From assembly GCA_902515985.1 (NCBI GenBank), contig CABXWY010000012.1, positions 1 to 32,484 on the forward strand: a DNA stretch of 32,484 nt, given 5' to 3'. A program made the position numbers and the translations under genes. The DNA comes from an uncultured Pelagibacteraceae bacterium. GTDB lineage: Bacteria > Pseudomonadota > Alphaproteobacteria > Pelagibacterales > Pelagibacteraceae. The stretch's first letter is position 1, and the number at the start of each line of letters is the position of its first letter. The notes below the pieces were generated by a model. It worked only from the letters and a program-made list of their open reading frames with translations, ran no database searches and had not been told where the DNA came from. Positions 12,098 through 26,708 of this stretch are shown one piece after another.

Positions 12098-13144
12098 TTA
12101 AGATTTAGATTTCATTGATCTCATAACAATCGATCTGTCAATTTCACCTAGCAAATCTCCAGTCTCATTACATATTACAGGATAACTTTTATCTGTATCT
12201 ACTAATTTATCGATCAAAGTCTCAATTTTTAAGTTGTCCATAATACAATCCGTTTTTTTTGAAAATAAATTTTTTGTTTCATCAGAACATTCCTTTCTCA
12301 TAACTTTACCTGCGCTTAAAACTTTATATTTTGGAACATCTTCACAGAAATCTTTAACATATTGATCTTTTGGGTTAGCAACTATTTCTTCTGGTGTTCC
12401 GACTTGTGAGACTTCACCATCTTTCATTATTGCAATATGATCTCCCATTTTAATTGCTTCCAAAAAATCATGCGTTATAAAAACCATAGTTCTTTGAAGT
12501 TTTTCTTGAATTTTTAAAAGTTCATCTTGCATCTCTCTTCTAATTAATGGATCTAATGCTGAAAATGGCTCATCAAAAATTAAGATTTCTGGATCCACTG
12601 CTAATGCTCTTGCTAAACCTACTCTTTGTTGCATACCACCTGAAAGTTCTCTAGGATAATTATTTTGCCACCCATCTAAACCTACCATTTTTAAAACTTC
12701 CATTGATTTTTCTAATCTAATTTCTTTTTTTGTACCCCTAACTTCCAGTCCATATCCAATATTTTCGACTACCGTTCTGTGAGGAAAGAGTCCAAAATGT
12801 TGAAAAACCATACTCATTTTATTTCTTCTTAACTCCAACAAATCTCTTGAGCTCATTTTAGTAACATCAACATCATCCATTTTAACAGTGCCTGTTGTCG
12901 GTTCAATTAATCTTGAAATACATCTTACTAAAGTAGATTTTCCACTGCCAGATAATCCCATTACTACAAAGGTTTCACCTTTTTGAATTGAAAAACTTAC
13001 ATCTCTTACAGCTACTACATGACCAGTCTTTTCTTGTATTTGTTTGATTGATAAACTTTTATCTATATTTTTTATTGTTCTTTTCTCATCTGGGCCAAAT
13101 AATTTCCAAATATTTGTACACGTGATTTTTTGGTCTGAGTTCAT
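12098..13144 (-). CDS. proV: Glycine betaine/proline ABC transporter ATP-binding protein (copy 2)
   Basis: ATPase of the second osmoprotectant importer (348 residues, same length as copy 1 at the window start). Walker A GLSGSGKST at 63-71, signature LSGGMQQ at 167-173, Walker B with Asp191-Glu192, switch His225. The N-terminal NIWKLFGP and EKTGHVVAVRDVSF segments are typical of ProV/OpuAA. The last 75 residues form a single CBS-like regulatory region (VMRKECSD... YPVICNETGDLLGEIDR). The gene is divergent from the fused permease at 13227, not in the usual proV-proW-proX order. The shared 82-base intergenic region carries a 17-base inverted repeat (13182-13198) that could regulate both directions. 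Confidence 0.95.
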   Translation of the reverse strand: MNSDQKITCTNIWKLFGPDEKRTIKNIDKSLSIKQIQEKTGHVVAVRDVSFSIQKGETFVVMGLSGSGKSTLVRCISRLIEPTTGTVKMDDVDVTKMSSRDLLELRRNKMSMVFQHFGLFPHRTVVENIGYGLEVRGTKKEIRLEKSMEVLKMVGLDGWQNNYPRELSGGMQQRVGLARALAVDPEILIFDEPFSALDPLIRREMQDELLKIQEKLQRTMVFITHDFLEAIKMGDHIAIMKDGEVSQVGTPEEIVANPKDQYVKDFCEDVPKYKVLSAGKVMRKECSDETKNLFSKKTDCIMDNLKIETLIDKLVDTDKSYPVICNETGDLLGEIDRSIVMRSMKSKS

Positions 13145-13181
13145 CTTAAAATTTATAATTTAATGTTTAAATACACAATAT

Positions 13182-13198
13182 TTTACTTTAAAAGTAAA
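13182..13198. promoter_or_regulatory. Inverted repeat in the proV/proW divergent promoter region (operator candidate)
   Basis: Perfect 8-base arms TTTACTTT (13182-13189) and AAAGTAAA (13191-13198) separated by one A, in the 82 bases between the divergent proV and permease starts. The placement suits a dimeric regulator controlling both transcripts. In a 70% AT genome such palindromes also arise by chance, so this is a candidate only. Confidence 0.35.
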
Positions 13199-13226
13199 TT
13201 TAATTATTTTATTTTTGTTTATAAAA

Positions 13227-15341
13227 ATGTCTAGTAGTAACGAAATATTAGGAAAATCAAATCAATCGAAAAATATAATAACTTACTCCATCATTGGTGT
13301 AATTTTTTTAATAGCTTTATGGCTATCTTCCCAGAGTGAAGGGCCATCTAAATTTCCAAAGTTTGTAACCGATGAGTTTACTTTTACTGCGTGGGTTAAC
13401 GAAGGAGAGGATTTTTTAAAAAAAAATTATAGGTGGATGACTAAAATTGTAGCTGGCTATATTAAGGCATGTTATTATTTTGTTGAAGATTTTTTACTTG
13501 AATCTCCATGGCTTTTAATAACAGCGATTATCTTTTTACCATGTATCATCGCTGGAGGTTTAAAATTAGGTCTATATTCTTTATTTGTAATTTATTTCTG
13601 GGGAGCAACTGGTATGTGGGAGCCATCACTTCAAACAGTCGCCTTGATGGGTCTATCTGTTCTACTCTGTGTTTTTTTTGGATTTATATTGGGAGTTTTA
13701 TGTTCTCAAAGCGATAGATTTGAAAATTTTATGAAACCGGTTTTAGATACGATGCAAGTTATGCCTGCTTTTGTTTATCTTTTTCCTGCATTATTTTTTT
13801 TTGGTATCGGTGGAGCACCAGCAATTCTCGCAACTATGATTTATGCGATGCCTCCAATTATAAGATTAACTAATACTGGTATCAGACAAGTGCCAGCCCA
13901 AACTATAGAGAGTGCAACTTCTTTTGGTTCAAGTAAATTACAACTTTTATTTAAAATTAAAATTCCATTATCTTTGCCCAGTATAATGATGGGTATCAAC
14001 CAGGTTATAATGATGGCTCTTGCACTTGTTGTCTTAGCTTGTTTTATAGGAGCAGAAGGTATCGGAGGACAAGTCTGGCAAGCTATTAGAAGATTAGATG
14101 TTGGTTGGGCTATGGAAGGAGGTCTATGTATTTTATTTATGGCAATAATGTTTGATAGATTTAGTTCATCCTTTAGTAAAACTGAAGAAAGACTTCCATC
14201 AGATGTCCAGAAATTTTATTTACTTCCTCAAGGGTGGGCTAAATACACCTTAGCAAGAATTATTGAAAAGCCTTTAAGTATTACGCATATGATAACAAAA
14301 TATATTTGTATATTTATTACTAATTTAATTGCCTACTTTTTTAGGTCTTTAATCTTAATATTTAACAAAAGATTTGCAGAAAATATCAGTGAGTTAATAA
14401 GTAAAAGATATTATATTGTTCCATCCTTTATAGTCTTCTTTATAATAAGCTTAGTTGATACATACTTGATAAATATTGGTTCATTCCCTGAAGAATGGCG
14501 ACTATCAATTAGGCAACCAATAACAAATGCTGTTGAAAGTTTGACAGTCAATCCGGGTTTTATTGCGTTCACGAAAGGTTTAAGAGCATTTGTATATCTT
14601 AATTTATTAAGACCATTAGATGTTTTTTTAACTCATATACCTTGGTGGTACACTATGGCTGTATTTGTTGCATTGGGATACATAACGGTTGGAATAAGAT
14701 TTGCATTTATAACAGCTTTATTATTGCTCTTTATTGGTGCGTGTGGAATTTGGTCCCACTCAATGATAACTCTGTCTTCGGTTTTGGTATCAGTTGCTTT
14801 ATGTTTCGTTATTGGAGTTCCGCTTGGAATAATAGCATCTTATAATGAGAGATTTAGGAATATTCAAAATGTTGTGTTAGATGCAATGCAAACACTTCCT
14901 TACTTCTGTTATCTAATTCCTGTTCTTATGTTTTTTGGTGGAGGTATTGTATCTGCGGTTCTGGCTACAGTAATTTATTCTATTCCTCCAATAATAAGAC
15001 TAACATCATTAGGTTTAACCCAAGTATCAGGATCATATTCTGAGGTTTCTAGATCATTTGGAGGAACACTTATACAAACTTTAAATAAGGTTAAATTTCC
15101 ATTAGCTGTTCCAAGTTTGGTAATAGGCTTCAATCAAACTGTTATAATGGCATTCGCGATGCAAATAGTAACTCCACTTATTGGAGGAAAAGGTTTAGGT
15201 TTAGAAGTATTTAACGGTTTAGCGAGATCAGATACTGGAAGAGGTCTTGCCGCAGGAATAGGAATTGTGCTTCTAGCTATAATTATAGATAGAATTTCTC
15301 TCGCTTGGACAAAGAAACAAAGAGAGGCCTTAGGATTATAA
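13227..15341 (+). CDS. proW: Glycine betaine/proline ABC transporter permease, tandem-fused double domain
   Basis: Inner-membrane permease with two complete BPD_transp_1 domains in one chain, about twice the usual ProW length. I chose the ATG at 13227 (704 residues) over a TTG at 13215, which adds only Met-Phe-Ile-Lys; neither has a clear Shine-Dalgarno sequence. Counting from the TTG, domain 1 spans roughly 135-315 with the EAA loop ESATSFGSSKLQLLFKIKIP at 232-251. Domain 2 spans roughly 515-695 with the matching loop around EVSRSFGGTLIQTLNKVKFP at 610-629. Both contain PPIIRLT before the loop. Domain 1 is preceded by an N-terminal helix and the halves are joined by a membrane-rich linker (320-510). 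One chain would supply both transmembrane halves of the importer, paired with the divergent ATPase and the binding protein that follows. Confidence 0.93.
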   Translation: MSSSNEILGKSNQSKNIITYSIIGVIFLIALWLSSQSEGPSKFPKFVTDEFTFTAWVNEGEDFLKKNYRWMTKIVAGYIKACYYFVEDFLLESPWLLITAIIFLPCIIAGGLKLGLYSLFVIYFWGATGMWEPSLQTVALMGLSVLLCVFFGFILGVLCSQSDRFENFMKPVLDTMQVMPAFVYLFPALFFFGIGGAPAILATMIYAMPPIIRLTNTGIRQVPAQTIESATSFGSSKLQLLFKIKIPLSLPSIMMGINQVIMMALALVVLACFIGAEGIGGQVWQAIRRLDVGWAMEGGLCILFMAIMFDRFSSSFSKTEERLPSDVQKFYLLPQGWAKYTLARIIEKPLSITHMITKYICIFITNLIAYFFRSLILIFNKRFAENISELISKRYYIVPSFIVFFIISLVDTYLINIGSFPEEWRLSIRQPITNAVESLTVNPGFIAFTKGLRAFVYLNLLRPLDVFLTHIPWWYTMAVFVALGYITVGIRFAFITALLLLFIGACGIWSHSMITLSSVLVSVALCFVIGVPLGIIASYNERFRNIQNVVLDAMQTLPYFCYLIPVLMFFGGGIVSAVLATVIYSIPPIIRLTSLGLTQVSGSYSEVSRSFGGTLIQTLNKVKFPLAVPSLVIGFNQTVIMAFAMQIVTPLIGGKGLGLEVFNGLARSDTGRGLAAGIGIVLLAIIIDRISLAWTKKQREALGL

Positions 15342-15383
15342 AATAAAGTCATTTAATAAGAAATTTAGCCATTTTTTACCCGG

Positions 15384-15436
15384 TTTACATATATATAGCT
15401 TTTGCACTACAATACTTTTTTAATTTTTAGAGGAGG
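15384..15436 (+). promoter_or_regulatory. Sigma-70-like promoter and strong ribosome binding site for the betaine-binding protein
   Basis: Within the 102-base gap after the permease stands TTTACA (15384-15389), an 18-base spacer and TACAAT (15408-15413), a good sigma-70 match. Transcription would begin near 15420. A perfect Shine-Dalgarno AGGAGG at 15431-15436 lies 7 bases before the ATG at 15444. Together with the downstream terminator this allows separate, high-level expression of the binding protein relative to the permease. No structure suggesting a riboswitch was seen here. Confidence 0.55.
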
Positions 15437-15443
15437 AAACTTA

Positions 15444-16454
15444 ATGAAATTAACAAAAACAATATCAGCACTATTTATATCTTTAGTGCTACTTGTAGGT
15501 AGTTTAGGGCAAGCAAATGCTGCTAAAAGACTACATGCAGCTATTGCAGACTGGACAGGTGGTATAATCACTTGTGAAGTTGCTGTAGCAATTCTTGAAA
15601 GAGAATATGGTTACAAAGTTAAACAAACAGTTTTTCCATCAGGAACTGGTCTATGGGAAGCAATTGCAGCAGGAGAGATTGATTTTGCATGTGAAAGCTG
15701 GCCAAGTTACGCTGAAGCAGACTCTGTAATGCTAAACGAAGATCTTATTTATGAAGGTAAAGTTGTTGGATCTTACAGTGGAGACGGAAGTGTTGATCTT
15801 TTAGGCACATCTGGAATTATTGGATTATCTGATTATTGGATCCCAAGATACGCTGCAGAAGAGTTTGGTATTAAAACTTGGAAAGATTTAAATAAACATA
15901 AAGCAAAGTTTGCTACTATCGAAACTGGAAACAGAGGTAGACTTATTGGATGTCCAGTAGCTGGTTGGAACTGTCATGACCAAAAAAGACTTGATATATT
16001 AGGAATTGACTTTCAAGCAGATGAACTTGGTACTGAAGCTGCAGCGATTGCAGAAGCAAAAGCCGCTTACATGAGGAAAGAGCCATTTATGTTATACCTT
16101 TGGTCACCACATTGGTTCTTCGGTGAATTTGATATGGTAGGAGTTCAACTTCCAGATCATAAAGTTTGTGATCCTGATACATTTACTGAAGCAGGTAACT
16201 GGAAAGATTGTGGAAAAAAAGGTTGGCCAGGAACTGGTTGGGCTAAAGATTACACAATGAACTACGGTAATCCAGCTGTGTTTGCAAAATCTGAAAATTC
16301 AGAAGCTAAGAAATTCTTTGAAAACATGTCTTTACAAAATATTGACCAAGCTAAAATGTTAGTTGAAGTTGATATTAAGAAAAGACCAGTAAAAGAAGTT
16401 GTTAAAGAATGGTTAGACAATAATCCAGATAAGTGGAAACCTTGGCTAAAATAA
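15444..16454 (+). CDS. proX: Glycine betaine ABC transporter substrate-binding protein, periplasmic
   Basis: OpuAC-family binding protein that captures glycine betaine or related quaternary amines in the periplasm and delivers them to the fused permease. The ATG at 15444 is preferred because of the AGGAGG at 15431-15436 and because it begins exactly at the signal peptide. An upstream TTG at 15402 would add 14 unlikely residues. From this start the protein has 336 residues; the Sec signal peptide (Lys-Leu-Thr-Lys start, hydrophobic core) ends at Ala-Asn-Ala26. The mature part is rich in Trp, as expected for a cation-pi box (Trp37 in ADWTGG; later LWEAIA, CESWPSY, YLWSPHWFF). An independent promoter precedes it and a rho-independent terminator follows. 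Confidence 0.94.
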   Translation: MKLTKTISALFISLVLLVGSLGQANAAKRLHAAIADWTGGIITCEVAVAILEREYGYKVKQTVFPSGTGLWEAIAAGEIDFACESWPSYAEADSVMLNEDLIYEGKVVGSYSGDGSVDLLGTSGIIGLSDYWIPRYAAEEFGIKTWKDLNKHKAKFATIETGNRGRLIGCPVAGWNCHDQKRLDILGIDFQADELGTEAAAIAEAKAAYMRKEPFMLYLWSPHWFFGEFDMVGVQLPDHKVCDPDTFTEAGNWKDCGKKGWPGTGWAKDYTMNYGNPAVFAKSENSEAKKFFENMSLQNIDQAKMLVEVDIKKRPVKEVVKEWLDNNPDKWKPWLK

Positions 16455-16476
16455 CATTTTTTAAATATTAAAAATT

Positions 16477-16505
16477 AAAGGCCCTTTTTAAAGGGCCTTT
16501 TTTTT
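16477..16505 (+). terminator. Rho-independent terminator after the betaine-binding protein
   Basis: Perfect 8-base stem AAAGGCCC (16477-16484) / GGGCCTTT (16493-16500) with an 8-base loop, running into eight consecutive T (16498-16505). It begins 22 bases after the stop at 16454 and ends 3 bases before the next ATG. It is the clearest terminator in the window. Confidence 0.88.
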
Positions 16506-16508
16506 ATT

Positions 16509-17297
16509 ATGACAAATCAATCTTTAAAAAATAAAAAAATCGTAATATCGGCGGGAGCTTCTGGGATTGGTTTAGCTACAGTAAAAGTTTGTTTAGACAG
16601 AGGTGCTACAGTTTTTGTGAGTGATATAAATGATAAGTACATCAATAAACTTAAAAAAAATTCAAAAATTAATAAAAAACTATTTGTCTTTAATTGTGAT
16701 GCTTCAGATGAATATCAAGTAGTAAATTTATTTGAAAAAATCAGAAAAAAAACCCCAAAAATAGATTGTCTAATAAACAATGTTGGAATAGCAGGTCCAA
16801 CAGGAACAATGGATAATTTATCCTCATCAGAATGGGAAAATACTTTAAGAGTAAATGTGTTTAGTCATTTTTATTTTAATAAGCTTGCGATCCCGATGCT
16901 AAAGAAGAATAAAGGTGGATCAATTATTAATATTTCTTCTGGAGCAGGCATAATGGGCTTTCCATTAAGATCACCTTATGCAGCAAGTAAATGGGCTATA
17001 ATTGGTATGACTAAAACTTTATCAATGGAACTTGGAAAATTTAAAATTAGAGTTAACGCGTTATGTCCAGGAACAATTAAGGGTGATAGAATGGTTAGGG
17101 TAGCAAAAGATAAAGCTAAACATTTAAAGATTTCAAAAAAATCTATCGAGAAAGAATTCATATCTATGGCCTCTATGAACTGCTGGATTTATGAAAGTGA
17201 TATTGGAAAAATGTGTAGTTTCTTAATTTCAGATGATGCAGCTAGAGTATCTGGACAAGTAATCGGTGTAGATGGTGATGCTATTAGATTACATTAG
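16509..17297 (+). CDS. Short-chain dehydrogenase/reductase (SDR)
   Basis: Classical SDR oxidoreductase of 262 residues. The cofactor motif reads GASGIG (16-21), in the TGxxxGxG position, and Asp39 after the second strand suggests NAD(H) preference. NNVG is at 90-93, the catalytic Ser at 143/144 in NISSGAG, and Tyr157 and Lys161 in YAASK. The C-terminal SGQVIGVDGD segment is typical. It acts on a hydroxyl or keto group of unknown substrate. It begins immediately after the terminator of the betaine-binding protein and heads a four-gene plus-strand group (SDR, hotdog thioesterase, EamA permease, 2OG-Fe oxygenase). Confidence 0.92.
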   Translation: MTNQSLKNKKIVISAGASGIGLATVKVCLDRGATVFVSDINDKYINKLKKNSKINKKLFVFNCDASDEYQVVNLFEKIRKKTPKIDCLINNVGIAGPTGTMDNLSSSEWENTLRVNVFSHFYFNKLAIPMLKKNKGGSIINISSGAGIMGFPLRSPYAASKWAIIGMTKTLSMELGKFKIRVNALCPGTIKGDRMVRVAKDKAKHLKISKKSIEKEFISMASMNCWIYESDIGKMCSFLISDDAARVSGQVIGVDGDAIRLH

Positions 17298-17333
17298 GTC
17301 TTTGAATTATGATGATGTATTAATAATAGTCAA

Positions 17334-17804
17334 ATGACAATAAAGATTTCTACAGAAATAATTAAGAAAGAATGGACTGATTATAATGGTCATATGAATG
17401 TAGCATATTACATTCTTATTTTTGACCAAAATGCTGCTGAAACGCTGATGACGAAACTTAATATGGGTGAAAAATCAGCCTTAGAAACTAATAAAAGTAC
17501 AATGGTGGTAGAATCTCATATTACTTATAATCAAGAATTAATTGAGGGTGATGAAGTTGAATTAAATCTAATTCATTTTGATCATGATAAAAAAAGAATT
17601 CAGTACAAATTTGAGATGATACACAAAGAAAAAAAATATTTAGCTTCTACAATTGAAGTCTTAGCTCTCTATGTTGATTTAAAAGAAAGAAAAGTTGCTG
17701 AATTTGAAGAAGAAAAAGTAAAACTAATGGCAAAATTTATAAGTGAAAATAAAGAGACTTTTAAAAGCGAAAATCTTATATTTTCTAGTAAATTAAAAAA
17801 ATAA
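17334..17804 (+). CDS. Hotdog-fold acyl-CoA thioesterase, candidate betainyl-CoA thioesterase (CdhB-like)
   Basis: 4HBT-type thioesterase of 156 residues. The active-site segment WTDYNGHMNVAYY (residues 14-26) holds the conserved Asp16 and the Gly-His-Met-Asn motif. The form DYNGHMNVAYY followed by xxFD resembles, from family knowledge, the thioesterases of carnitine clusters (CdhB), which hydrolyse betainyl-CoA to glycine betaine and CoA. In some proteobacteria this domain is fused to carnitine dehydrogenase. The dehydrogenase (27964-28902) and the cleavage enzyme (1573-2457) of the same route are in this window but in other operons. It could instead act on another CoA ester made by the preceding SDR pathway. 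It follows the SDR gene by 36 bases. Confidence 0.78.
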   Translation: MTIKISTEIIKKEWTDYNGHMNVAYYILIFDQNAAETLMTKLNMGEKSALETNKSTMVVESHITYNQELIEGDEVELNLIHFDHDKKRIQYKFEMIHKEKKYLASTIEVLALYVDLKERKVAEFEEEKVKLMAKFISENKETFKSENLIFSSKLKK

Positions 17805-17807
17805 TTC

Positions 17808-17825
17808 TATTATTTTAAAATAATA
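17808..17825. repeat. 18-base perfect palindrome between thioesterase and permease genes
   Basis: TATTATTTTAAAATAATA is its own reverse complement and lies in the 41-base gap before the EamA gene at 17846. It could be an operator or a weak all-AT hairpin terminator; it lacks a following T run (cttttata). Chance occurrence in AT-rich DNA is possible. Confidence 0.35.
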
Positions 17826-17845
17826 CTTTTATATAGGCGCAATTA

Positions 17846-18793
17846 ATGGAAGGTAACAACAATACAAAAGGAATTTTTCTTATCCTTTTAGGTATGGCTT
17901 TTTTTTCCGTGCAAGATGCTTTAATAAAATTTATCTATAATGATATCGCCTTATATGAGCTTTACATGGTGAGGACAATAACAGCATTTGCACTATTATT
18001 ATTTTTTATGATTATTGCTAAAAAGAAAATAATTTTTAAGACTCATTTTTTATTGTTAACTATTGTTCGTGTAATATTTTTCTTTTTTGGTTTTAGCTTT
18101 TTTTATATTTCCCTAACATTTATGTCTCTAGCTATGGCTAATGCATTATTCTTTTCAAGTCCATTTTTTATGTCCATACTTGCAATGATATTTTTAAAAG
18201 AAAAAATTGGTATAAGAAGATGGAGTGCAATTGTTGTCGGATTTATTGGGGTATTTATTGTTTTAAATCCTGACTTTAAAGATTTCAATTTTATGAAACT
18301 CTCCCCAGTATTGTGTGCAATTTTCTACTCATCGTCTATGATCATAACAAAAATTACTTCAAAGAAAGATAATGTTTATACTCAAATGATGCATTTATAT
18401 ATTGGTGCGCTTTTAATTAGTCTAATATTTTATTTAACAATGGGAAATGGAGAATTAAATAATTTTTCAGATCCAACTTTTCAATTTATTTTTAGAGAGT
18501 GGTTTGTTAACATAAATTACTCATGGCCTTTTGTTATTTTAATGGGTTTTATTGCTTCAGTTTCATTTTACTGTGTTTTCACTGCATATAGTATTGCATC
18601 TCCGTCATTGGTTTCACTATTTGAATATTCTTTAATTATTTGGGCAATCATCACTGGATATTTATTATTCAATGAAATGCCAAATACTAGAACCTTTTTA
18701 GGTGCATTTATTATTATTGCTGCAGGAATTTATATTTACTTTAGAGAAAAAGTGAAAGATCAAATGATAGTTACAGATACGCCAAACAGATGA
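17846..18793 (+). CDS. DMT superfamily (EamA) permease
   Basis: Ten-helix inner-membrane transporter of 315 residues with two EamA halves. First half: ALFFSSPFFMSILAMIFLKEKIGIRRWSA. Second half: the FEYSLIIWAIITGYLLFNEMP segment near the end. It is paralogous to 11165-12097. Its stop overlaps the start of the next gene (ATGA, 18790-18793), so it is translationally coupled to the 2OG-Fe oxygenase, which suggests transport of that enzyme's substrate or product. The substrate is not shown by the sequence. Confidence 0.9.
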   Translation: MEGNNNTKGIFLILLGMAFFSVQDALIKFIYNDIALYELYMVRTITAFALLLFFMIIAKKKIIFKTHFLLLTIVRVIFFFFGFSFFYISLTFMSLAMANALFFSSPFFMSILAMIFLKEKIGIRRWSAIVVGFIGVFIVLNPDFKDFNFMKLSPVLCAIFYSSSMIITKITSKKDNVYTQMMHLYIGALLISLIFYLTMGNGELNNFSDPTFQFIFREWFVNINYSWPFVILMGFIASVSFYCVFTAYSIASPSLVSLFEYSLIIWAIITGYLLFNEMPNTRTFLGAFIIIAAGIYIYFREKVKDQMIVTDTPNR

Positions 18794-19749
18794 TAAAAAA
18801 TTATATTCCAACAATTGATATATCTTCATTAGCTAAAAATAATTTCAGATCAAAAAAATCAATTCAAACTATAAAGCATATTGAAGAAGCTTGTAAAAAA
18901 GTTGGTTTTTTTCAGATTACAGGTCATGGAATAAAAATTAATAAAGTTTCTGAAGTAGGACAAAAGTTTTTTAAACTTCCATTGCAAAACAAGATTAAAT
19001 TGGCACCAAAAAAATGGAATAAATTAAGTAAAAATACATATAGAGGATATTTTCCGAGTGATGTGAATGGAAAAGAAGGTTTGGATATTGGTGATTTGAA
19101 AGTTACAAAAAAAATATCAAAAAATATTTCAAATCAATATATAGAATATTTAGATTTAAATAAATCATTTGATAAAAAATCAATAAAAATACTATCGAAT
19201 TACTTTGACAATATTTATTTATTAAGCGAACAACTTTTCAAAAGCTTAATAATATTAAATAAAAAAAACCATATTTTATCAAAGCAAGCTTTTTCAAGAA
19301 TCAAAACTTTAAGTACGTTAAGATTCAATTATTATACTAATCAAAAAAAACCAGTGGAGATCTCAAAGCAAGACGGGGTAGCATTGGGATGTGAAACTCA
19401 CGTCGACAGTGGTATTTTTACTGTTCTCTATCAAGATCAGATAGGAGGATTGCAAGTACAAAATAGAAAAAATAAAAAATGGTATAACGTTCCATTTAAT
19501 AAAAATGCTTTAGTTGTAAATACAGGAAGAGCGTTGGAATATTTAACTAACGGAAAATTGAAAGCAACTAATCATAGGGTGCTTTGGAATAAAAAGAAAA
19601 GAATGTCTATTCCATTCTTTTTTGAACCCTCTTATGACTTTAAAATGCATGATTCCTTTTTTAAGAAAAAACCATCATTAAATCTTGGTCAAAGTTATGA
19701 TCAATTTCTTAATAATTCATTAAAAAAATTTGTTGAATATCAAAGATAA
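18790..19749 (+). CDS. 2-oxoglutarate/Fe(II)-dependent oxygenase (isopenicillin N synthase-like)
   Basis: Double-stranded beta-helix dioxygenase of 319 residues. The iron ligands are His204, Asp206 and His262 (ETHVDSG and ATNHRVLW), and the 2-oxoglutarate anchor is Arg271-x-Ser273 in KRMSIPFFF. The N-terminal DIOX_N region is recognisable by IPTIDISSL and VGFFQITGHGI. It probably hydroxylates or oxidatively cleaves a small metabolite; plant-hormone-type and antibiotic-type members share this layout, so the name says nothing about the substrate. Last gene of its operon, overlapping the permease stop by 4 bases. Its stop is 103 bases before the flavin monooxygenase gene. Confidence 0.9.
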   Translation: MIKNYIPTIDISSLAKNNFRSKKSIQTIKHIEEACKKVGFFQITGHGIKINKVSEVGQKFFKLPLQNKIKLAPKKWNKLSKNTYRGYFPSDVNGKEGLDIGDLKVTKKISKNISNQYIEYLDLNKSFDKKSIKILSNYFDNIYLLSEQLFKSLIILNKKNHILSKQAFSRIKTLSTLRFNYYTNQKKPVEISKQDGVALGCETHVDSGIFTVLYQDQIGGLQVQNRKNKKWYNVPFNKNALVVNTGRALEYLTNGKLKATNHRVLWNKKKRMSIPFFFEPSYDFKMHDSFFKKKPSLNLGQSYDQFLNNSLKKFVEYQR

Positions 19750-19761
19750 TAATAATATTGT
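19733..19761 (+). promoter_or_regulatory. Weak sigma-70-like promoter before the structured leader
   Basis: TTGAAT (19733-19738), a 17-base spacer and TATTGT (19756-19761) would place the transcription start near 19768, just before the structured leader. The matches are moderate and overlap the 3' end of the 2OG-Fe oxygenase gene. Confidence 0.3.
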
Positions 19762-19770
19762 TATTTAAAA

Positions 19771-19847
19771 GCGATACATAACTCATCGTTTTGCTCAAAG
19801 CATTCGAAAGTGGGATCGGTCGTCTTTAAATTAGTTTTTAAAGGAGG
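19771..19847 (+). ncRNA. Candidate structured 5' leader (possible riboswitch) of the flavin monooxygenase operon
   Basis: The 103-base gap before 19853 is more G+C rich than its surroundings and folds by eye. CGAU (19772-19775) pairs with AUCG (19815-19818). After a six-base bulge, CUCAU (19782-19786) pairs with GUGGG (19810-19814; two G-U pairs), with both 3' strands contiguous. Inside is a UGCU/AGCA hairpin (19792-19802) and an unpaired UUCGAAA. Next comes a separate perfect 7-base hairpin CUUUAAA (19824-19830) / UUUAAAG (19837-19843), whose 3' arm runs into the Shine-Dalgarno AAGGAGG (19841-19847). An aptamer-like fold followed by a hairpin at the ribosome binding site suggests translational control. 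SAM-V, known from Pelagibacterales, would be the first class to test; I cannot confirm a match. Confidence 0.4.
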
Positions 19848-19852
19848 CTTTT

Positions 19853-21022
19853 ATGAAATTTGGATATTTTTGCAATACAACTAATTGGACTCACAAACCT
19901 TACGATAAACTTCTAGATGAAACTAGAGAAATCACTGAATATTGTGATAAAAATAATTGGAATTCGATTTGGTATACTGAACATCACTTCAATCATGAAG
20001 GAATGGAGTCTTTGACAAACCCTTTAATGATGGGAGTTGATGCTGCTGCTAGAACAAAAAATATAAGAATAGGTCAAGCTTGTAACGTAATTACTTTTCA
20101 TAATCCAATTAGAATGGCTGAAGACATCGCTCTACTTGATCAGTTATCCAAAGGTCGAGTTGAAATTGGAATTGGAAGAGGAATATATGGAAGAGAAGCG
20201 ATCAATTTAAACAAAGAAGCAGATATGAAGGATCAAGCAAAAAATTTTAGATTGTTCGAAGAAACACTTACAATTTTAAAAAAAGCTTGGAAAGAAAAAT
20301 TTTTCAATCACAAAGGTGAATTTTATACTTATCCTGCTCCTAATTATGTATGGCAACATGATATGAGTCCTCCGAATAAAGATTTAGTAAATATTGAAAC
20401 AAATGTAATGGAAAACATAAGTGTCCTACCAAAACCTTACCAAAAACCATATCCTGCTATTCATCAGGTGGTGGATGGAATTAGATCTATTGAATGGGCT
20501 GCTGCACAAGGTTTAAATATTATAATGTGGATACCAACTGTTAAGGCCTTAAAAATTAAATTTGAAGCTTTTAAAAATGCAAAATCAGAAGCAGAAAAAA
20601 GAAATGTTCCAATGGGAGAAGGTATCTCATTAGTAAGAGATATGTTTGTTGCAGATACAATGGAAGAGGCAAGAGAAAAAGCAGGAGAGCATATGGTAAA
20701 CTATATGAGGTGGGTTTGTCACTGGAGAGGACTTGGTAACCACATGGATCCAGATGAAGAATTACCAATAACAAAAGGTAAATTAGATTTGTTAAGTTAT
20801 GATTTTTTACACAAAAGAAATATGCTTTTTGGAACTCCTGAATATGTAATTGACAAAATACACGAGCTAAAATCTGAATTAAATTTACAAAATTTGCAAG
20901 TATGGTCAAACTTTCCAGGGGTAAAACACGAAGATTACATGAAGAGTATAAAATTATTTACAGAAAAAGTAATGCCTCACTTCAAAGATAATACAAAAGA
21001 AGAAATTAAAAAAGTTTCGTGA
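19853..21022 (+). CDS. Luciferase-like flavin-dependent monooxygenase (LLM class)
   Basis: Flavin-dependent oxygenase of the bacterial luciferase-like TIM-barrel family (389 residues). Visible family segments: WYTEHHF near residue 42, NPLMMGVDAAARTKNIRIG, FHNPIRMAEDIALLDQLSKGRVEIGIGRG at about 84-112, and the C-terminal LFGTPEYVIDKI. It uses reduced FMN and O2, so a separate flavin reductase is needed; none is adjacent on this strand, although the flavodoxin-fold oxidoreductase at 25566-26135 is close. The gene has a strong AAGGAGG and a structured leader. Its TGA overlaps the GTG of the TPP enzyme (4 bases). It heads an operon of five genes whose substrate is unknown. Confidence 0.9.
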   Translation: MKFGYFCNTTNWTHKPYDKLLDETREITEYCDKNNWNSIWYTEHHFNHEGMESLTNPLMMGVDAAARTKNIRIGQACNVITFHNPIRMAEDIALLDQLSKGRVEIGIGRGIYGREAINLNKEADMKDQAKNFRLFEETLTILKKAWKEKFFNHKGEFYTYPAPNYVWQHDMSPPNKDLVNIETNVMENISVLPKPYQKPYPAIHQVVDGIRSIEWAAAQGLNIIMWIPTVKALKIKFEAFKNAKSEAEKRNVPMGEGISLVRDMFVADTMEEAREKAGEHMVNYMRWVCHWRGLGNHMDPDEELPITKGKLDLLSYDFLHKRNMLFGTPEYVIDKIHELKSELNLQNLQVWSNFPGVKHEDYMKSIKLFTEKVMPHFKDNTKEEIKKVS

Positions 21023-22719
21023 ATAAATCTAAAAAGGTTTTAAGTGGTGGCCAAGCTGCCGTTCGATCATTAAAAAAAGAAAATATCAAACATGTCTTCG
21101 GTCTTATTGGTTCAGCTACCATGGAAATGTTTGATGCACTTTACCATGAGAAAGAAATAAAATTTATTGGAGTTAGAGACGAAAGAACTGGAACTCATAT
21201 GGCAGATGGTTATGCAAGAGCTTCAAATAATCCTGGAGTTATTCTGGCGGGTCAAAATGGACCTGGTGCAACAAATTTAGTAACAGGTATTGCTCAAGCT
21301 AAAGCAGCATTCTCACCAGTAATTGCCTTAGCTGGATCATATTCCAGTAATGATAAAATGGAAGATGCGTTTCAAGGTCTTGATCAACAATCACTATTTA
21401 AACCAATTACAAAAAAAACTTGGACAGTTAATAAAGTAAAACAAATTCCTAATGTTTTAAGTAGTGCATTTAAATTGGCTATGACACCAAGACGAGGACC
21501 AGTATGTGTAAATTTACCAAGAAATATCCTTGCAGAAAATTCAAAATTTGAGATCGATGAAAGGGTTAGGTCTTTTAAAAACGTAAGCAGATTAAAAGGA
21601 AAAATATCCCAAATTAAAAAAGCCGTCAGCATTATTCTTAAATCTAAGAAACCAGTTATTGTTGCTGGTGGGGGAATTAAGTATACAAGTAAACACCAAG
21701 ATGTAATTAATCTTGCTGAACTTTTAAATATTCCGATTGTAACTGCAGCCGGACATGGTGATGCTATTCCATTTTACCATAAATTGAACGCAGGTCAGAT
21801 GGGTCCCAGAGGAAATCCTGTTGCTTCTAAGCTAGTAAAAGAGGCTGATGTTATTTTGGCACTTGGTACTAGACTTGGTTTTAACTCAACTTTTTATTCT
21901 TATGACAATATAAATAAAAAAGCTAAAATTATTCAAGTTGAGCTCGAAAGATCAATGTTGGGAAGATACTTTAAAGTTGCTATCGGAATCTATGGGGATG
22001 CTTCGACAGTAACTAATCAAATTTTTGAAGAAGTTAAAAATCAAAAGCTTTTATCATCAGCTAATTCATGGACAACTAAATATCTAAATCAGAGAGCAAA
22101 ATACTTAAGAAATAGGGATAAAGGAAAAGAAATTGACCTTTACCCTATTCAGCCAACTGGTTTATTTAAAAAATTAAGAAGTGTTTTACCTACAAACTCA
22201 GCTATTACACTTGATGCAGGTACATTGTGTCTTCAGGCAACCGACGCACTTCAATATAATGACCCTCCATCGTTATTTACTCCATTAGATTTTGGATTAG
22301 TTGGATTTTCTTTTGCATGTGGACTGGGCGTAAAAGTTGCAAGACCAGATAGAACAGTTGTTAGTTTGATGGGTGATGGAGGTTTTGGTATGACAATTTC
22401 AGAACTAAGTACAGCTGTCGAATATGGAATTAACACTACAACAATTGTAATGAACAATAAAAGTTGGGGCGCTGAAAAGGCTTATCAAAAAGATTTTTAC
22501 GGTAAAAGATATTTAGGAGCTGATATAGAGAGTCCCTCTTTCGATAAAGTTGCAGAACTTTATGGTGCAAAAGGTTTTAAGGTAAAAAGAGTTTCAGAAA
22601 TTACTGATGCGGTAGAAGCTGCAATTAAATCAAATAAACCTTCAGTCATTGATGTTGATGTTGATCCTAAAGCGTTATACAGTTTTAGAAGAGATAGCTT
22701 TAAACACAGGACTAAATAA
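21019..22719 (+). CDS. Thiamine diphosphate-dependent enzyme (acetolactate synthase / sulfoacetaldehyde acetyltransferase-like)
   Basis: ThDP enzyme of the AHAS/Xsc/oxalyl-CoA decarboxylase superfamily, 566 residues with all three domains. Cofactor-activating Glu55 lies in VRDERTGTHMADGYARAS. The central domain starts near 195 (KPVIVAGGGI at 211-220). The ThDP/Mg site is GDGG at 452-455 with Asn480. The segment NNKSWGAEKAYQKDFYGKR is close in form to the WGAEKxxQxDFYxxR of sulfoacetaldehyde acetyltransferase (Xsc), more than to acetolactate synthase, but substrate identity is not proven. No phosphotransacetylase or sulfonate gene is adjacent, which argues against simple taurine breakdown. GTG start; overlaps the monooxygenase by 4 bases and the next gene by 1 (TAATG). 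Confidence 0.88.
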   Translation: MNKSKKVLSGGQAAVRSLKKENIKHVFGLIGSATMEMFDALYHEKEIKFIGVRDERTGTHMADGYARASNNPGVILAGQNGPGATNLVTGIAQAKAAFSPVIALAGSYSSNDKMEDAFQGLDQQSLFKPITKKTWTVNKVKQIPNVLSSAFKLAMTPRRGPVCVNLPRNILAENSKFEIDERVRSFKNVSRLKGKISQIKKAVSIILKSKKPVIVAGGGIKYTSKHQDVINLAELLNIPIVTAAGHGDAIPFYHKLNAGQMGPRGNPVASKLVKEADVILALGTRLGFNSTFYSYDNINKKAKIIQVELERSMLGRYFKVAIGIYGDASTVTNQIFEEVKNQKLLSSANSWTTKYLNQRAKYLRNRDKGKEIDLYPIQPTGLFKKLRSVLPTNSAITLDAGTLCLQATDALQYNDPPSLFTPLDFGLVGFSFACGLGVKVARPDRTVVSLMGDGGFGMTISELSTAVEYGINTTTIVMNNKSWGAEKAYQKDFYGKRYLGADIESPSFDKVAELYGAKGFKVKRVSEITDAVEAAIKSNKPSVIDVDVDPKALYSFRRDSFKHRTK

Positions 22720-23306
22720 TGAAATTAGAATTAAGAAAGTTTACGAAGTTTGTAGACAAAACTTTTATAGAGGGAGGAAAAGAAGCAAAAAATCCTGTCC
22801 TATTAGTTTCTGTTGCGGCTGTTTTTAAAAATCCTTGGGATGGTCAAGGATTTGTTGAAGATTTAAAACCTACAATTCTAGATTTGGCTCCTAAACTTGG
22901 AGACATGTTAGTACCAGAATTAATAAAAGAAATTGGTTCTCCAGATAAAATTTTAGCTTATGGAAAAGCAGGTGTAGTAGGATTGAATGGTGAGATTGAA
23001 CACGCGTCAGCATTTATTCATACTTTAAGATTCGGAAATAAGTTTAGAGATGCGGTGGGTGGAACATCTTATTTAAGTTTTACTAACACAAGAGGACCTG
23101 CAGGATCAAAGATTTCTATACCAATGATGCACAAAACAGACTCTGGATTAAGACCTTATTACTTAACGCATGAATTTACCATTCATGATGCTCCATTTGA
23201 TAATGAGATAGTTATTGCAATTGGGGGAGCTTCGAGTGGAAGAGCTCATGCAAGAACCGGTGATAGATATCAAGACATGAAAGAAATGGGCATTGAACCT
23301 AAATAA
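22719..23306 (+). CDS. Amino acid synthesis family protein (PF06684, formerly DUF1185)
   Basis: A 195-residue protein recognisable by the family segments NPVLLVSVAAVFKNPWDGQ (25-43), YGKAGVVGLNGEIEHASAFIHT (76-97), GTSYLSFTNTRGPAGSKISIPMMHK and the C-terminal AIGGASSGRAHARTGDR. The family is known for a chorismate-mutase-like fold but has no established reaction. It commonly sits beside luciferase-like monooxygenases, hydrolases and aldehyde dehydrogenases, as here. Its conserved basic and polar loops (SSGRAHARTGDR) may form an active site (inference). Start ATG overlaps the TPP enzyme stop by one base; the next gene starts 5 bases after its stop. Confidence 0.88.
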   Translation: MKLELRKFTKFVDKTFIEGGKEAKNPVLLVSVAAVFKNPWDGQGFVEDLKPTILDLAPKLGDMLVPELIKEIGSPDKILAYGKAGVVGLNGEIEHASAFIHTLRFGNKFRDAVGGTSYLSFTNTRGPAGSKISIPMMHKTDSGLRPYYLTHEFTIHDAPFDNEIVIAIGGASSGRAHARTGDRYQDMKEMGIEPK

Positions 23307-23311
23307 TTTAA

Positions 23312-24088
23312 ATGATCAATGCTTTTGATTCTAAAGGTACTTATTATCAATTAAATAAAAAAAAAGAATTACCTATTGTTTTAATTCACGGTGTTGGCCT
23401 TGATCACGAAATATGGGAATATCAATTTAATTCTTTTGAAAATACGGTCCTTACTTACGATATTCTAGGTCACGGAAAAACACCTCTTGAGGCTGGACGA
23501 ATAACGTTTGATGATTTTGCTACACAACTTATTAACCTAATTGATGAGCTTGATATTGGAAAAATTCATTTAGTAGGTTTTTCAATTGGATCTCTAATTG
23601 CAAGAAATTTTGCAACAAAATATAATGATAGATTACAAACATTAACTTTACTTAGTTCTATATTTAAAAGATCTAATCAACAACAAAAGATAGTTGATGA
23701 TAGATTTGAAAAATCAAAAAACAGTAGCAAGATGTCAAACGATGCACTGGTAAGATGGTTTACAGAAGATTACCTAAAAAAAAATCAAGAAAGATCTGAA
23801 TGGATTAGTTCAATATTAAGTAGAAATAATATGAAAAATTTTAATAAAATTTATGAACTTTTTGTAAAACATAAAGACGATGAAGATTTTAAAAAAATAA
23901 AAAACTGAAACTTTAGTTATGACTGGAGAAGAAGATGTCGGTTCAACTCCAGAGATGTCAAAAAAAACCTAAGTAAAGTAATTAAAAATTCCAAATTAAA
24001 AATAATACCTAAAGGAAAACATCTGTGTAGTATTGAATGTGCAGATGATGTAAACAACGCTATTAAAGAACATGTAAAAAATGACTAA
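23312..24088 (+). CDS. Alpha/beta-hydrolase, reading frame broken by two compensating homopolymer indels
   Basis: Alpha/beta-hydrolase of the enol-lactonase/esterase type. The first frame runs to a TGA at 23906-23908 and contains VLIHGVG (23-29) and nucleophile Ser91 in GFSIGS. Removing one A from the A6 run at 23899-23904 continues into LVMTGEEDVGS with acid Asp208. Adding one A to the A8 run at 23960-23967 continues to PKGKHL with His237 and a normal end at 24086-24088. The repaired product has 258 residues with a full Ser91-Asp208-His237 triad, so everything needed is present. Sequencing error is the simplest reading, recent inactivation the alternative. The repaired end overlaps the aldehyde dehydrogenase ATG by 8 bases, as expected inside this operon. 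Confidence 0.82.
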
Positions 24089-25563
24089 ATTAAAACAGTA
24101 TAAAATGTTTATTGATGGGGAATGGGTAAACTCTGAATCAAAAAAAAACTTTTGAAACTTTAAATCCAGAAAATAATAAGCCATGGGCTGTAGTCCCAGA
24201 AGCAAGTGCAAGTGATGTTGATAGAGCAGTAAAAGCAGCACAAAAAGCATTTGAGGGAGAGTGGCCAAAATTATTGCCAAGAGAAAGAGGAAAATATTTA
24301 AGAGCAATTGGAAATAAATTAAGAGAAAATGCTAAATTGCTTGGTGAAATTGAAACAATAGATACTGGAAAACTTTTTAGAGAAACAAATAAACAAGCAA
24401 ACTATATTGCAGAATATTATGATTATTACGCTGGTTTGGCTGACAAAGTTGAAGGCACAGTTTTACCAATAGATAAACCAAATATTCAAGCTATGACAAC
24501 AAGAATACCTATTGGTGTTATTGCTGCAATAGTACCTTGGAATTCACAAATGTTTTTAACGGCTACAAAGTTAGCTCCTGCATTAGCTATGGGAAACACA
24601 GTTGTAATAAAATGTTCTGAATTAGCGCCAGCTGTTATGTTTGAATTCGCAAAATTAATAGAAGAAACTGGTATACCTAAGGGAGTGGTAAATGTTATTA
24701 CTGGATTTGGAGATCCTTGTGGAAAAACTCTAACATCTCATAATTTGGTAGAGAAAATTGCTTTTACTGGTGGTCCAGAGACAGCAAGACATATTATAAA
24801 AAATTCATCTGAAAACTTATCAGAAGTTAGTTTAGAACTAGGAGGAAAAAGTCCAGTAGCTGTTTTTGATGATGCAAACCAAGAAAGTGCAATAAATGGA
24901 ATTACTGCAGGAATTTTTGGTGCAACTGGTCAAAGTTGTATTGCAGGATCTCGACTTTATATACAACAAGGTATTTATGATGAATTTTTAGATAAACTAG
25001 TTAAGAGAGCAGAAAAAATAAAAATTGGAGCTCCAATGGATCCTGAAACCGAAATGGGACCATTAAGTAATTTTAAACAATTAGAAATAATAGAAAAAAA
25101 TATTAAATTAACTGTTGAACAAGGTGGTAAAATTAAATTCGGTGGTAAAAGACATCCTTTCTCAAATGAGGGTTATTATTTTCCTCCTACAATAATAGAA
25201 TGTGATAATCATAATTTACCTGTAGCAGAGAATGAACTTTTTGGTCCAGTTCTTTCAGTAATGAAGTTTGAAAGTGAAGAAGAAGTAATTAAAAAAATGA
25301 ATGATAATCAATATGGATTATCTTCTGGAGTATTTTCCTCAGATTTTTCAAGAGCATTAAGAGTTTCAAATGCTATAAGAGCTGGAATTACATTTGTTAA
25401 TACCTATAGATTAATTTCACCCTCTGCACCTTTTGGAGGAATAAAAGATAGTGGATATGGCAAGGAAGCAGGAATTGATTCTATTAAAGACTATACTAGG
25501 GTAAAGACTACTTGGCTAAATACTTCTGATGAACCAATGAAAGATCCTTTTACAATTGGCTAG
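24081..25563 (+). CDS. Aldehyde dehydrogenase, interrupted near the N-terminus by one homopolymer indel
   Basis: ALDH superfamily enzyme whose ATG at 24081 starts Met-Thr-Lys-Leu-Lys and the usual MFIDGEWVNSES strand pair. The A9 run at 24140-24148 then breaks the frame (stop at 24154-24156). Deleting one A joins the parts (KKTFETLNPENN) and gives 493 residues, the normal length. In repaired numbering: Asn154 in VPWNS, Lys177 in IKCSE, general base Glu252 in LELGGK, catalytic Cys286 in TGQSCIAGSRL. A TTG at 24274 is the first start in the downstream frame but would lack 64 residues of the coenzyme domain. It is the last gene of the monooxygenase operon and ends 3 bases from the convergent oxidoreductase gene. 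Confidence 0.85.
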
Positions 25564-25565
25564 AA

Positions 25566-26135
25566 CTACAAACCAATAGCTAATTTTTCTACATCTCTTA
25601 AAAACTTTTTTCTTTTTCCATCAGAAACGAATGGGACAGCAAAAAATCTTTTGTAAACTACATCTCTTATTCCACAAATATTAAATACACCTCTCCTTAA
25701 TCTTTTTGTAGGCATATTTAAAAAGAAAGTTTTAATTGCAAACTGTGGTGATCCATAAGTACAGAAAACTATAGCTTTTTTCCCTTTTAAATTGCCAACT
25801 GGATAACCATAATTTCCAAAAATTTTTTTAAATGAAAATGCCCATGGTGGAGTCATAACTCTATCTATCCACCCCTCCACTATTGCTGGCATTCTAAAAT
25901 TCCAAATTGGAGCAACTAAAACAATTATATCACAATTCTCTATCCTTTTTTGATGATCCAAAACTGTTTTGTCTGGTTTTTCTCCTGTAAAAACTGGATC
26001 AAATTTCTCTTTATATAAGTCCACACAATCAACCTCGTGCCCATTCTCTTTAACTTTTTCAATAAAAGTATTTTTAATTGCTGCGTTAAAAGACTTATCA
26101 TTATAATGACCATAGACTAAAAAAATTTTTTTCAT
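25566..26135 (-). CDS. Flavodoxin-fold NAD(P)H-dependent oxidoreductase
   Basis: NQO1/KefF-type (Flavodoxin_2) FMN or FAD enzyme, 189 residues from the ATG at 26135. That start is chosen because it forms an ATGA overlap with the MsrA stop and begins MKKIFLVYGHYND. A TTG three codons earlier is less likely. Family features: the N-terminal phosphate loop (GHYNDKSFNAA), VLVAPIWNFRMPAIVEGWIDRV and YGSPQFAI before a C-terminal helix. It reduces quinones or free flavin by two electrons. Last gene of the seven-gene minus-strand operon. It is tail to tail with the monooxygenase operon, so it could supply reduced flavin, but there is no direct evidence. Confidence 0.88.
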   Translation of the reverse strand: MKKIFLVYGHYNDKSFNAAIKNTFIEKVKENGHEVDCVDLYKEKFDPVFTGEKPDKTVLDHQKRIENCDIIVLVAPIWNFRMPAIVEGWIDRVMTPPWAFSFKKIFGNYGYPVGNLKGKKAIVFCTYGSPQFAIKTFFLNMPTKRLRRGVFNICGIRDVVYKRFFAVPFVSDGKRKKFLRDVEKLAIGL

Positions 26136-26708
26136 GATTTCCAAATATTATTTAATCTTTTTTCTCTACCACACCCTTTTTTGTATAGTAAGTAATTAAT
26201 AAATTTTTTTTCATAGTAATCCTGATGATTTTCCTCAGCTTTATAAAATTTTTTAAAATCTCTAATATAAGTTACAACTTTGGAGTTAAATTTTTTCTCT
26301 ATCTCGCTTTTAGAGTTTTCTATAATTTTTTTTTGTTCTTCATTTTGATAAAAAGCAACTGATCTATAACTAAAACCTTTGTCACAAAATTGTCCTTGTT
26401 CGTCAAAAGGATCAATATTAATCCAAAATAAATTAACTAGTTCCTCAAAAGTTATTATAGACTTATCATAAATTATTTCGATTGTTTCAAAATGTCCTGT
26501 ATTACCATAAGTTACGTCTTCGTAAGTTGGATTTTCAGTTGTTCCACCTGAATAACCTGAGATAACCTCTTTTACCCCATTTTTTTTTTCAAAAGCCTCC
26601 TCCATACACCAAAAACATCCTCCACCAAAATAAGCTTTTGAATTTTCTGCAAAAGAAAGACTACAATGCAAAACAAAAAAAAATTATTAAAAAATTAATT
26701 TTTTTCAC
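26132..26708 (-). CDS. msrA: Peptide methionine sulfoxide reductase MsrA, canonical, with frameshifted signal peptide
   Basis: MsrA with the canonical GGGCFWCMEE active site, GYSGGTTENPTYEDV, GNTGHFETIEI and YRSVAFY segments. The core frame opens at a stop at 26686-26684 and could start at TTG 26671. A better start is the GTG at 26708, which overlaps the TAG of the upstream gene by one base (TAGTG). It encodes Val/Met-Lys-Lys-Ile-Asn-Phe-Leu-Ile-Ile-Phe-Phe, then loses frame in a run of nine T (26683-26675, minus strand). Reading eight T restores a complete Sec signal peptide ending Ser-Phe-Ala before Glu-Asn-Ser-Lys and a full periplasmic MsrA of about 191 residues. Fits a sequencing error, or slippage variation between exported and cytoplasmic forms. 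Confidence 0.85.

Follow-up and report, generated by a model that had tools for sequence, protein, structure and literature searches.

The window analysed here, 32,484 nucleotides of DNA from an uncultured Pelagibacteraceae bacterium, raises the question of whether the 103-nt leader between the end of a 2OG-Fe(II) oxygenase gene (19749) and the gene for a luciferase-like flavin monooxygenase (LLM; 19853-21022) is a riboswitch and, if so, what kind of molecule it would sense. An earlier note had pointed to several paired strings in the structured segment of this leader (19767-19847), and all of them are present as described: CGAU (19772-19775) with AUCG (19815-19818), CUCAU (19782-19786) with GUGGG (19810-19814), and a perfect 7-bp hairpin, CUUUAAA/UUUAAAG, whose 3′ arm enters the AAGGAGG at 19841-19847. 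Taken from the window alone the observation is weak: the folding energy of the single sequence is unremarkable both for 19750-19855 (z = -1.66; 13/200 shuffles as good) and for 19771-19847 (z = -1.16; 28/200). Comparison with the corresponding sequences of relatives lifts it far above chance. We consider it quite probable that the leader acts in cis as a translational riboswitch, one whose class is absent from Rfam and from the papers searched, and that it would control a probably catabolic operon in SAR11, the group of highly abundant marine bacteria to which the window belongs. The parts of the leader are as follows.

19768-19775, + strand: 5′ arm of P1, AAAGCGAU, the closing helix of the putative aptamer; pairs with 19819-19827, with compensatory changes and a strand-swap result of 24/5000.
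19776-19781, + strand: J1/2, ACAUAA, a strand of the internal loop, near-invariant among the 96 distinct relatives aligned, the search pattern partly imposing this invariance.
19782-19785, + strand: 5′ arm of P2, CUCA; partner at 19811-19814, three pairs invariant and one varying on one side; in the RNAalifold consensus.
19786-19807, + strand: P3 hairpin, with the stem UCG (19786-19788)/CGA (19805-19807) and a loop variable in length and sequence.
19808-19810, + strand: AAG bulge between P3 and P2, invariant in the alignment, its columns belonging to the search pattern.
19811-19814, + strand: 3′ arm of P2, UGGG, from the alignment, the pair test and RNAalifold.
19815-19818, + strand: J2/1, AUCG, the other strand of the internal loop, mostly conserved in the alignment.
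19819-19827, + strand: 3′ arm of P1, GUCG(U)CUUU, whose last four bases (19824-19827) are also the start of the anti-SD hairpin.
19824-19843, + strand: anti-SD hairpin, CUUUAAA (19824-19830)/UUUAAAG (19837-19843); strand-swap 0/5000 with 57 distinct pairs.
19841-19847, + strand: ribosome binding site AAGGAGG, read from the sequence, with its first bases within the hairpin; its accessibility was predicted.

The aptamer model was evaluated on an alignment (A4) of 96 distinct aptamers, from which L075 was excluded. These rows, and the 119 distinct leaders used further below, were gathered by the core pattern, so that their conserved columns are partly imposed, and relatedness is uncorrected in the covariation shuffles and in the swap tests. 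With P1, P2 and P3 as modelled, 91.5% of the cells are paired, versus 38-49% after a shift of the partner by one column. Double changes occur in 8 of the 16 model pairs (equalled by 2/500 shuffles) and in 30 cells (equalled by 0/500). The slide by +1 also gives 30 double-change cells, but in fewer pairs (6 versus 8), and therefore more reliance is placed on the pairing percentage and on individual cases. In L013, GCGAU is changed to GAAGAC together with a change from GUCGUC to GUUUUC; in L017, AGCGAU stands opposite GUCGCU; and in L163, P1 is formed by GUUAACGAU opposite GUCGUAAC. Non-standard pairs make up 12.5% of the P1 cells in the alignment. By eye, P1 in L076 and L088 is shortened or shifted rather than lost, one A-U pair being absent on both sides in L076. 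When the strands of P1 are exchanged among leaders, 24 of 5000 permutations are as good as the native partners (38 distinct pairs).

P3 has double changes in 3 of its 4 modelled pairs, around a loop of highly variable length; no conserved pseudoknot partner of this loop, which varies also in sequence, was seen by inspection. Its first base, U19786, had been placed by the earlier note at the end of a CUCAU/GUGGG helix. That helix is nearly right, with three invariant pairs, and its fifth base fits better opposite A19807 in P3, where the pair is standard in 93 of 96 aptamers and shows 4 double changes. The fourth pair of P2 (19785-19811) varies on one side and is non-standard in 11/96. Since covariation is no test of the three invariant pairs, P2 is a predicted helix that rests on folding; RNAalifold, with no structure supplied, recovers the inner pairs of P1 as well as P2 and P3. 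The CGAU/AUCG helix of the same note had to be given up: it shows 0 double changes in 96 relatives, and the covariation score of the structure of which it was part is equalled by 500/500 shuffles. The AUCG strand of L013, which stays the same while its CGAU strand changes, likewise argues against this pairing being under constraint. In the revised model, AUCG belongs to the internal loop. The loop ACAUAA/AUC and the AAG bulge are invariant or almost so. The same core appears in 74 printed matches of a covariance model, which are free of the pattern, with few exceptions (GGGAUA in L087, L090, L091 and L105; AUAUAAC in L095).

This covariance model, R1, was built from 17 leaders of relatives, and its scans of the genomes of the order, class and phylum used stricter Infernal filters, by which weak matches are lost. 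In the order, 136 of the 397 genomes have R1 matches (138 in all; E as low as 1.1e-16 for one genome), and an independent protein search found LLM in 137 of the 397; 135 genomes have both. In 135/138 cases LLM follows the match on the same strand at a distance of 17-32 nt, the remaining matches being one in G414 and extra copies in G401 and G072. Cut contigs account for the genomes that have one partner only: in G039 and G355 LLM is cut by the contig end and the leader would be off the contig, and in G414 LLM is cut short at the contig end. Inspection of 74 R1 matches in 73 loci gave an LLM homologue as the next gene in 72, and no gene after two extra copies. Among the 61 close relatives, the window's own genome included, LLM is found in 19 and the core pattern in 17, and a reversed control pattern has 0 matches. 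The two LLM genomes missed by the pattern are G039, whose contig starts inside the gene, and G028, whose copy differs in its P1 strand and has an enlarged P3 loop.

A scan of named genomes with the DNA pattern returned at least 118 stretches, and more genomes carry the motif. Among the stretches listed, 108/118 bear Pelagibacteraceae, Pelagibacterales or Pelagibacter titles. Five of the 118 listed (L116, L117, L139, L151 and L213) were dropped as chance stretches, and 113/118 listed are real by inspection; five matches on viral contigs were dropped too. The first gene after the RNA is LLM in 110 of the 113 real stretches listed; of the other three listed, two run off the fetched piece and L163 has an ALDH fragment next. 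In L163 the RNA lies at 7863-7920 (- strand), and this locus is probably decayed or chimeric. Five of the 113 listed carry other labels (MarineAlpha5_Bin9, MED641, AG-916-I19, TMED61 and AG-464-G03), which may be SAR11 relatives or misbinned. Another unusual locus is L073, in which two RNA copies (1164-1226 and 2675-2742) stand on either side of an inserted gene, whose 356-aa product matches a methyltransferase domain weakly and below the cut-off; the first copy is without an operon gene downstream, and the arrangement looks like a duplication around the insertion. Carriage by phages was considered and rejected: an LLM gene follows none of the five pattern matches on viral contigs, and a search for LLM in 50,697 phage records gave no match at E up to 1e-10.

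In wider samples, R1 matched only the window's own genome among 385 genomes of the class, which include 4 further family members without the RNA, and 349 of the phylum; within the sampled genomes the element thus looks confined to SAR11 and near relatives. Its conservation and its one-to-one link to LLM are seen directly in these comparisons, as are P1, P3 and the arm that P1 shares with the anti-SD hairpin. The translational-riboswitch layout proposed in the earlier note came through both checks that bear on it, with ligand binding kept as a candidate property. The element precedes every LLM gene with upstream DNA on its contig in the 397 genomes, and compensatory changes are found in P1 and P3 and, by strand swap, in the anti-SD hairpin, though not in the CGAU/AUCG helix that had been named.

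How such a leader might switch is suggested by the arm shared between the two structures. The hairpin had been thought separate from the aptamer; instead, the last four bases of P1, CUUU, open the hairpin and pair there with the AAAG of the ribosome binding site, so that the 3′ arm of P1 overlaps its 5′ arm. After four leaders in which no ATG was found had been excluded from the 119, 115 entered the swap tests. The set for accessibility and linker shuffling comprised 106, repeats and leaders with no recognised ribosome binding site (four, by script) being left out; in L077, L135, L138, L146 and L181 the ATG chosen by the script precedes the probable start of LLM. The native partners of the anti-SD hairpin beat swapped ones, with 0/5000 permutations as good. 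The window's own hairpin shows no gain in this test (-5.0 with its own partner versus -5.5 swapped). Averaged over 106 leaders, the predicted unpaired probability of the ribosome binding site is 0.20 in the free fold and 0.44 once P1 and P2 are imposed; the window's leader gives 0.18 versus 0.42. Under this constraint accessibility gains more than 0.1 in 79/106 leaders and loses more than 0.1 in one. The constraint is predicted to cost 4.7 kcal/mol on average, an amount that the ligand would need to supply. Shuffling of the linker raises the predicted accessibility to 0.34, the native value being lower in 97/106. In these predictions P1 and the anti-SD hairpin behave as coupled, mutually exclusive structures.

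This sharing of one arm by P1 and the hairpin makes a switch plausible, and the doubling of predicted access under forced P1 and P2 suggests a ligand-ON translational riboswitch, which we favour as the predicted direction. The aptamer, of about 60 nt, would consist of P1, the internal loop ACAUAA/AUCG, P2, the AAG bulge, and a short P3 with a free loop. When the ligand is absent, the CUUU of the P1 3′ arm would preferentially pair downstream with the AAAG of AAAGGAGG, and the ribosome binding site would be hidden. When a ligand fills the internal loop, P1 would be stabilized and retain the CUUU, and the ribosome binding site would be exposed. We infer that the ligand of the candidate aptamer is a small molecule. 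An OFF switch, or a version of the same arrangement bound by a protein, may operate instead.

A protein is the partner in one alternative, which we consider rather improbable. In this case a regulator or an enzyme of the operon would bind the conserved loop and shift the balance between P1 and the hairpin; a conserved internal loop and a bulge on a short stem would suit a protein as well, and one operon per genome, with a second copy in only 2/136 genomes, is what autoregulation would give. The same core is kept, however, in operons with or without a TPP-dependent enzyme and with LLM identity down to about 57%, and no labelled gene outside the operon is a constant neighbour in the compared loci; a regulator could be encoded at a distance. 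The conserved strings could also act at the DNA level, as an operator or promoter element that a transcription factor binds. TATAAT-like boxes (with up to one mismatch) show peaks at -27 (47/143) and -24 (40/143) relative to the core, versus 2.65 per position further upstream, which would place the start of transcription immediately ahead of P1. There is a third peak inside the P1 strand itself, at -11 (42/143), besides smaller ones. The element sits just downstream of such boxes, a position at which operators occur, and its core is kept as sequence; an operator would give no reason for the compensatory changes in P1 and P3, for the swap result of the anti-SD hairpin or for the free loop length between the conserved halves, and we hold it to be highly improbable.

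Very unlikely, too, is a leader that senses no molecule, whether a simple RNA thermometer or a constitutive element for setting the level of translation. In favour of this reading, the anti-SD hairpin is weak, at a mean of -5.3 kcal/mol, and AT-rich, and L013 has a match to the ToxT thermometer family, though far below threshold (13.5 bits versus 81 required, E = 9); a thermometer needs only the hairpin, and the conserved 60-nt upstream domain with its competing P1 would be left unexplained. Little credence can be given to the idea that the leader has diverged from an already known class, for example SAM-V, THF-II, yjdF or TPP. Size and leader position are similar, and SAM-V occurs in SAR11, which had led the earlier note to name it as a possible known class. 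Against this, the search of Rfam 15 (4227 families) gave 0 matches in the window at the gathering cut-off, and lists extending to E = 10, made for the leader and for three divergent relatives, contain no riboswitch family; no SAM family, neither SAM-V nor SAM-II, appears in any of these cmscan results. SAM-V of Pelagibacter ubique is likewise a leader RNA of SAR11 that controls translation (PMC6061858, PMC2704228, in the parts available), and is described there as an H-type pseudoknot before methionine genes (PMC6061858); unlike it, the LLM leader has been given a model in which P1, P2 and P3 form one nested stem, the internal loops being conserved and the apical loop variable.

Other RNAs have been proposed in SAR11. 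The candidates of Meyer et al. (2009) also come from comparative genomics and are mostly leaders, like the LLM-leader RNA; in the portions consulted, their motifs rpsB, rpsL, ffh, rhtB, pntA, bablM and SAR11_0636 belong to other genes and have other architectures, and the words luciferase, monooxygenase and alkanal are absent from the main text. Word searches of two later RNA surveys found no SAR11, luciferase or monooxygenase, and Pelagibacter in a reference only. No published description of the element was recognised in the literature searched, most subscription papers lying outside it. A possible functional parallel is the azaaromatic riboswitch yjdF, which binds nitrogen-containing aromatics (PMC4793209, as far as seen); the LLM-leader RNA has no Rfam match to it, and its own putative ligand link comes from the operon. 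What is found is a conserved structure, supported by covariation and, for P2, by prediction, upstream of a specific gene, as in riboswitches, and we call it a new riboswitch candidate class with a known way of working.

What the candidate switch would sense can be approached through the genes that follow it.

19853-21022, + strand: luciferase-like flavin monooxygenase LLM (PF00296), the first gene under the proposed regulation.
21019-22719, + strand: TPP-dependent enzyme, acetolactate synthase- or sulfoacetaldehyde acetyltransferase-like, present in some operons only.
22719-23306, + strand: DUF1185/AA_synth (PF06684) protein of the TgnF family.
23312-24088, + strand: alpha/beta-hydrolase, with a reading frame that in the assembly is disturbed close to an A-run (about 23905).
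24142-25563, + strand: aldehyde dehydrogenase (ALDH), the in-frame aligning part, with the N-terminus out of frame in the assembly.

At 23880-24190, the hydrolase has an in-frame stop after its disturbed frame, and both this and the out-of-frame N-terminus of ALDH are near A runs. In L192 (single cell AG-422-N07), whose leader is identical to that of the window as far as the start codon, the same two genes are intact (257 aa and 493 aa). The breaks in the window are probably assembly or sequencing errors. The order LLM-TPP enzyme-DUF1185-hydrolase-ALDH is found in 32/113 and LLM-DUF1185-hydrolase-ALDH in 27/113 of the stretches listed, and the remaining listed loci are shorter pieces of both orders, mostly from the end of the fetched DNA. 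The TPP enzyme directly follows LLM in 56 of 110 listed loci and does not in 38, while 16 could not be told; the same RNA core stands before both types, with LLM proteins down to about 57% identity. The two types differ at the bases after GGGAU (19817-19819), which among the loci listed are CGG in 55 of the 56 TPP-enzyme operons, and CGG in 17, CAA in 11, CGA in 9 and CAG in 1 of the 38 without the enzyme; lineage or an altered ligand preference could lie behind this difference.

No flavin reductase was seen inside the SAR11 operon. A flavodoxin-like or FMN-reductase-like gene faces it at 25566-26144 (- strand) and might supply LLM with reduced flavin. Upstream (12098-19749) are genes for a choline/glycine betaine-type ABC transporter, an SDR and a thioesterase, followed by EamA and the 2OG oxygenase, the last two being upstream of the RNA also in many relatives. 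The interval between the 2OG oxygenase gene and the RNA holds varied unlabelled frames in L105, L108, L110, L112, L120, L126, L128, L210, L215 and L219, suggesting an insertion hotspot. Sequence neighbours in the PDB of LLM, DUF1185, the TPP enzyme, the 2OG oxygenase and the hydrolase identified no substrate.

Both operon types carry the same RNA, so the ligand should belong to their shared steps, and the substrate of LLM or an early product is its likeliest identity. By gene content, the operon has the tgn-type clustering of LLM, hydrolase, ALDH and DUF1185: an LLM oxygenase, an alpha/beta-hydrolase, an ALDH and a TgnF-family DUF1185 protein are shared with the tgn cluster of Acinetobacter baylyi and with similar clusters of Rhizobiales, in comparison with which the TPP enzyme is an addition of some SAR11 operons. 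TgnB is an LLM protein, TgnD a hydrolase, and TgnC and TgnE aldehyde dehydrogenases, as Perchat et al. reportedly found in 2018. Homologues of the four proteins are clustered on the 4 Rhizobiales plasmids examined, out of 386 plasmid records with a DUF1185 match; the L192 proteins are 25-27% (LLM), 25-33% (hydrolase), 42-51% (ALDH) and 57% (DUF1185) identical to theirs. Unlike the SAR11 operon, these four clusters adjoin an annotated flavin reductase and a DNA-binding regulator. A search for LLM on plasmids gave 11 records, with identity of at most 31.9%, and PF06684 is absent from 14 control genomes.

This resemblance to the trigonelline gene set makes an N-methylpyridinium carboxylate, or its ring-opened product, the best guess at the ligand, and it is a tentative one: a carboxylate such as trigonelline or homarine is possible, though we doubt it more than we believe it. 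We know of no riboswitch for pyridinium betaines. TgnF, a DUF1185-family protein, has a stimulating effect on TgnE, an enzyme by which Acinetobacter baylyi handles trigonelline, and another member of the family is found in a 7-hydroxycoumarin operon, where such stimulation could not be shown (PMC7913881). The occurrence in the latter operon means that the family alone leaves the substrate unfixed. TgnA/TgnB open the ring of trigonelline and were judged in the same study unlikely to act on homarine (PMC8269262, whose homarine values are lowered by a correction, PMC10134881). A 2026 paper on homarine catabolism, cited in PMC13390433, reportedly ties homarine to Mgd; its genes may include or exclude the SAR11 LLM operon.

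The SAR11 LLM operon is a probable ring-breaking, catabolic oxygenase operon, and an orphan riboswitch candidate linked one-to-one with it offers a direct handle on the substrate that is degraded: once the ligand of this 60-nt RNA is found, the substrate of the pathway should follow. In one version, conceivable and held only tentatively, a new riboswitch class of SAR11 and near relatives would sense trigonelline, homarine or a ring-opened product and switch on its breakdown. If the ligand is homarine or trigonelline, the riboswitch would tie a phytoplankton metabolite to its consumers, and SAR11 would sense a phytoplankton osmolyte directly by RNA.
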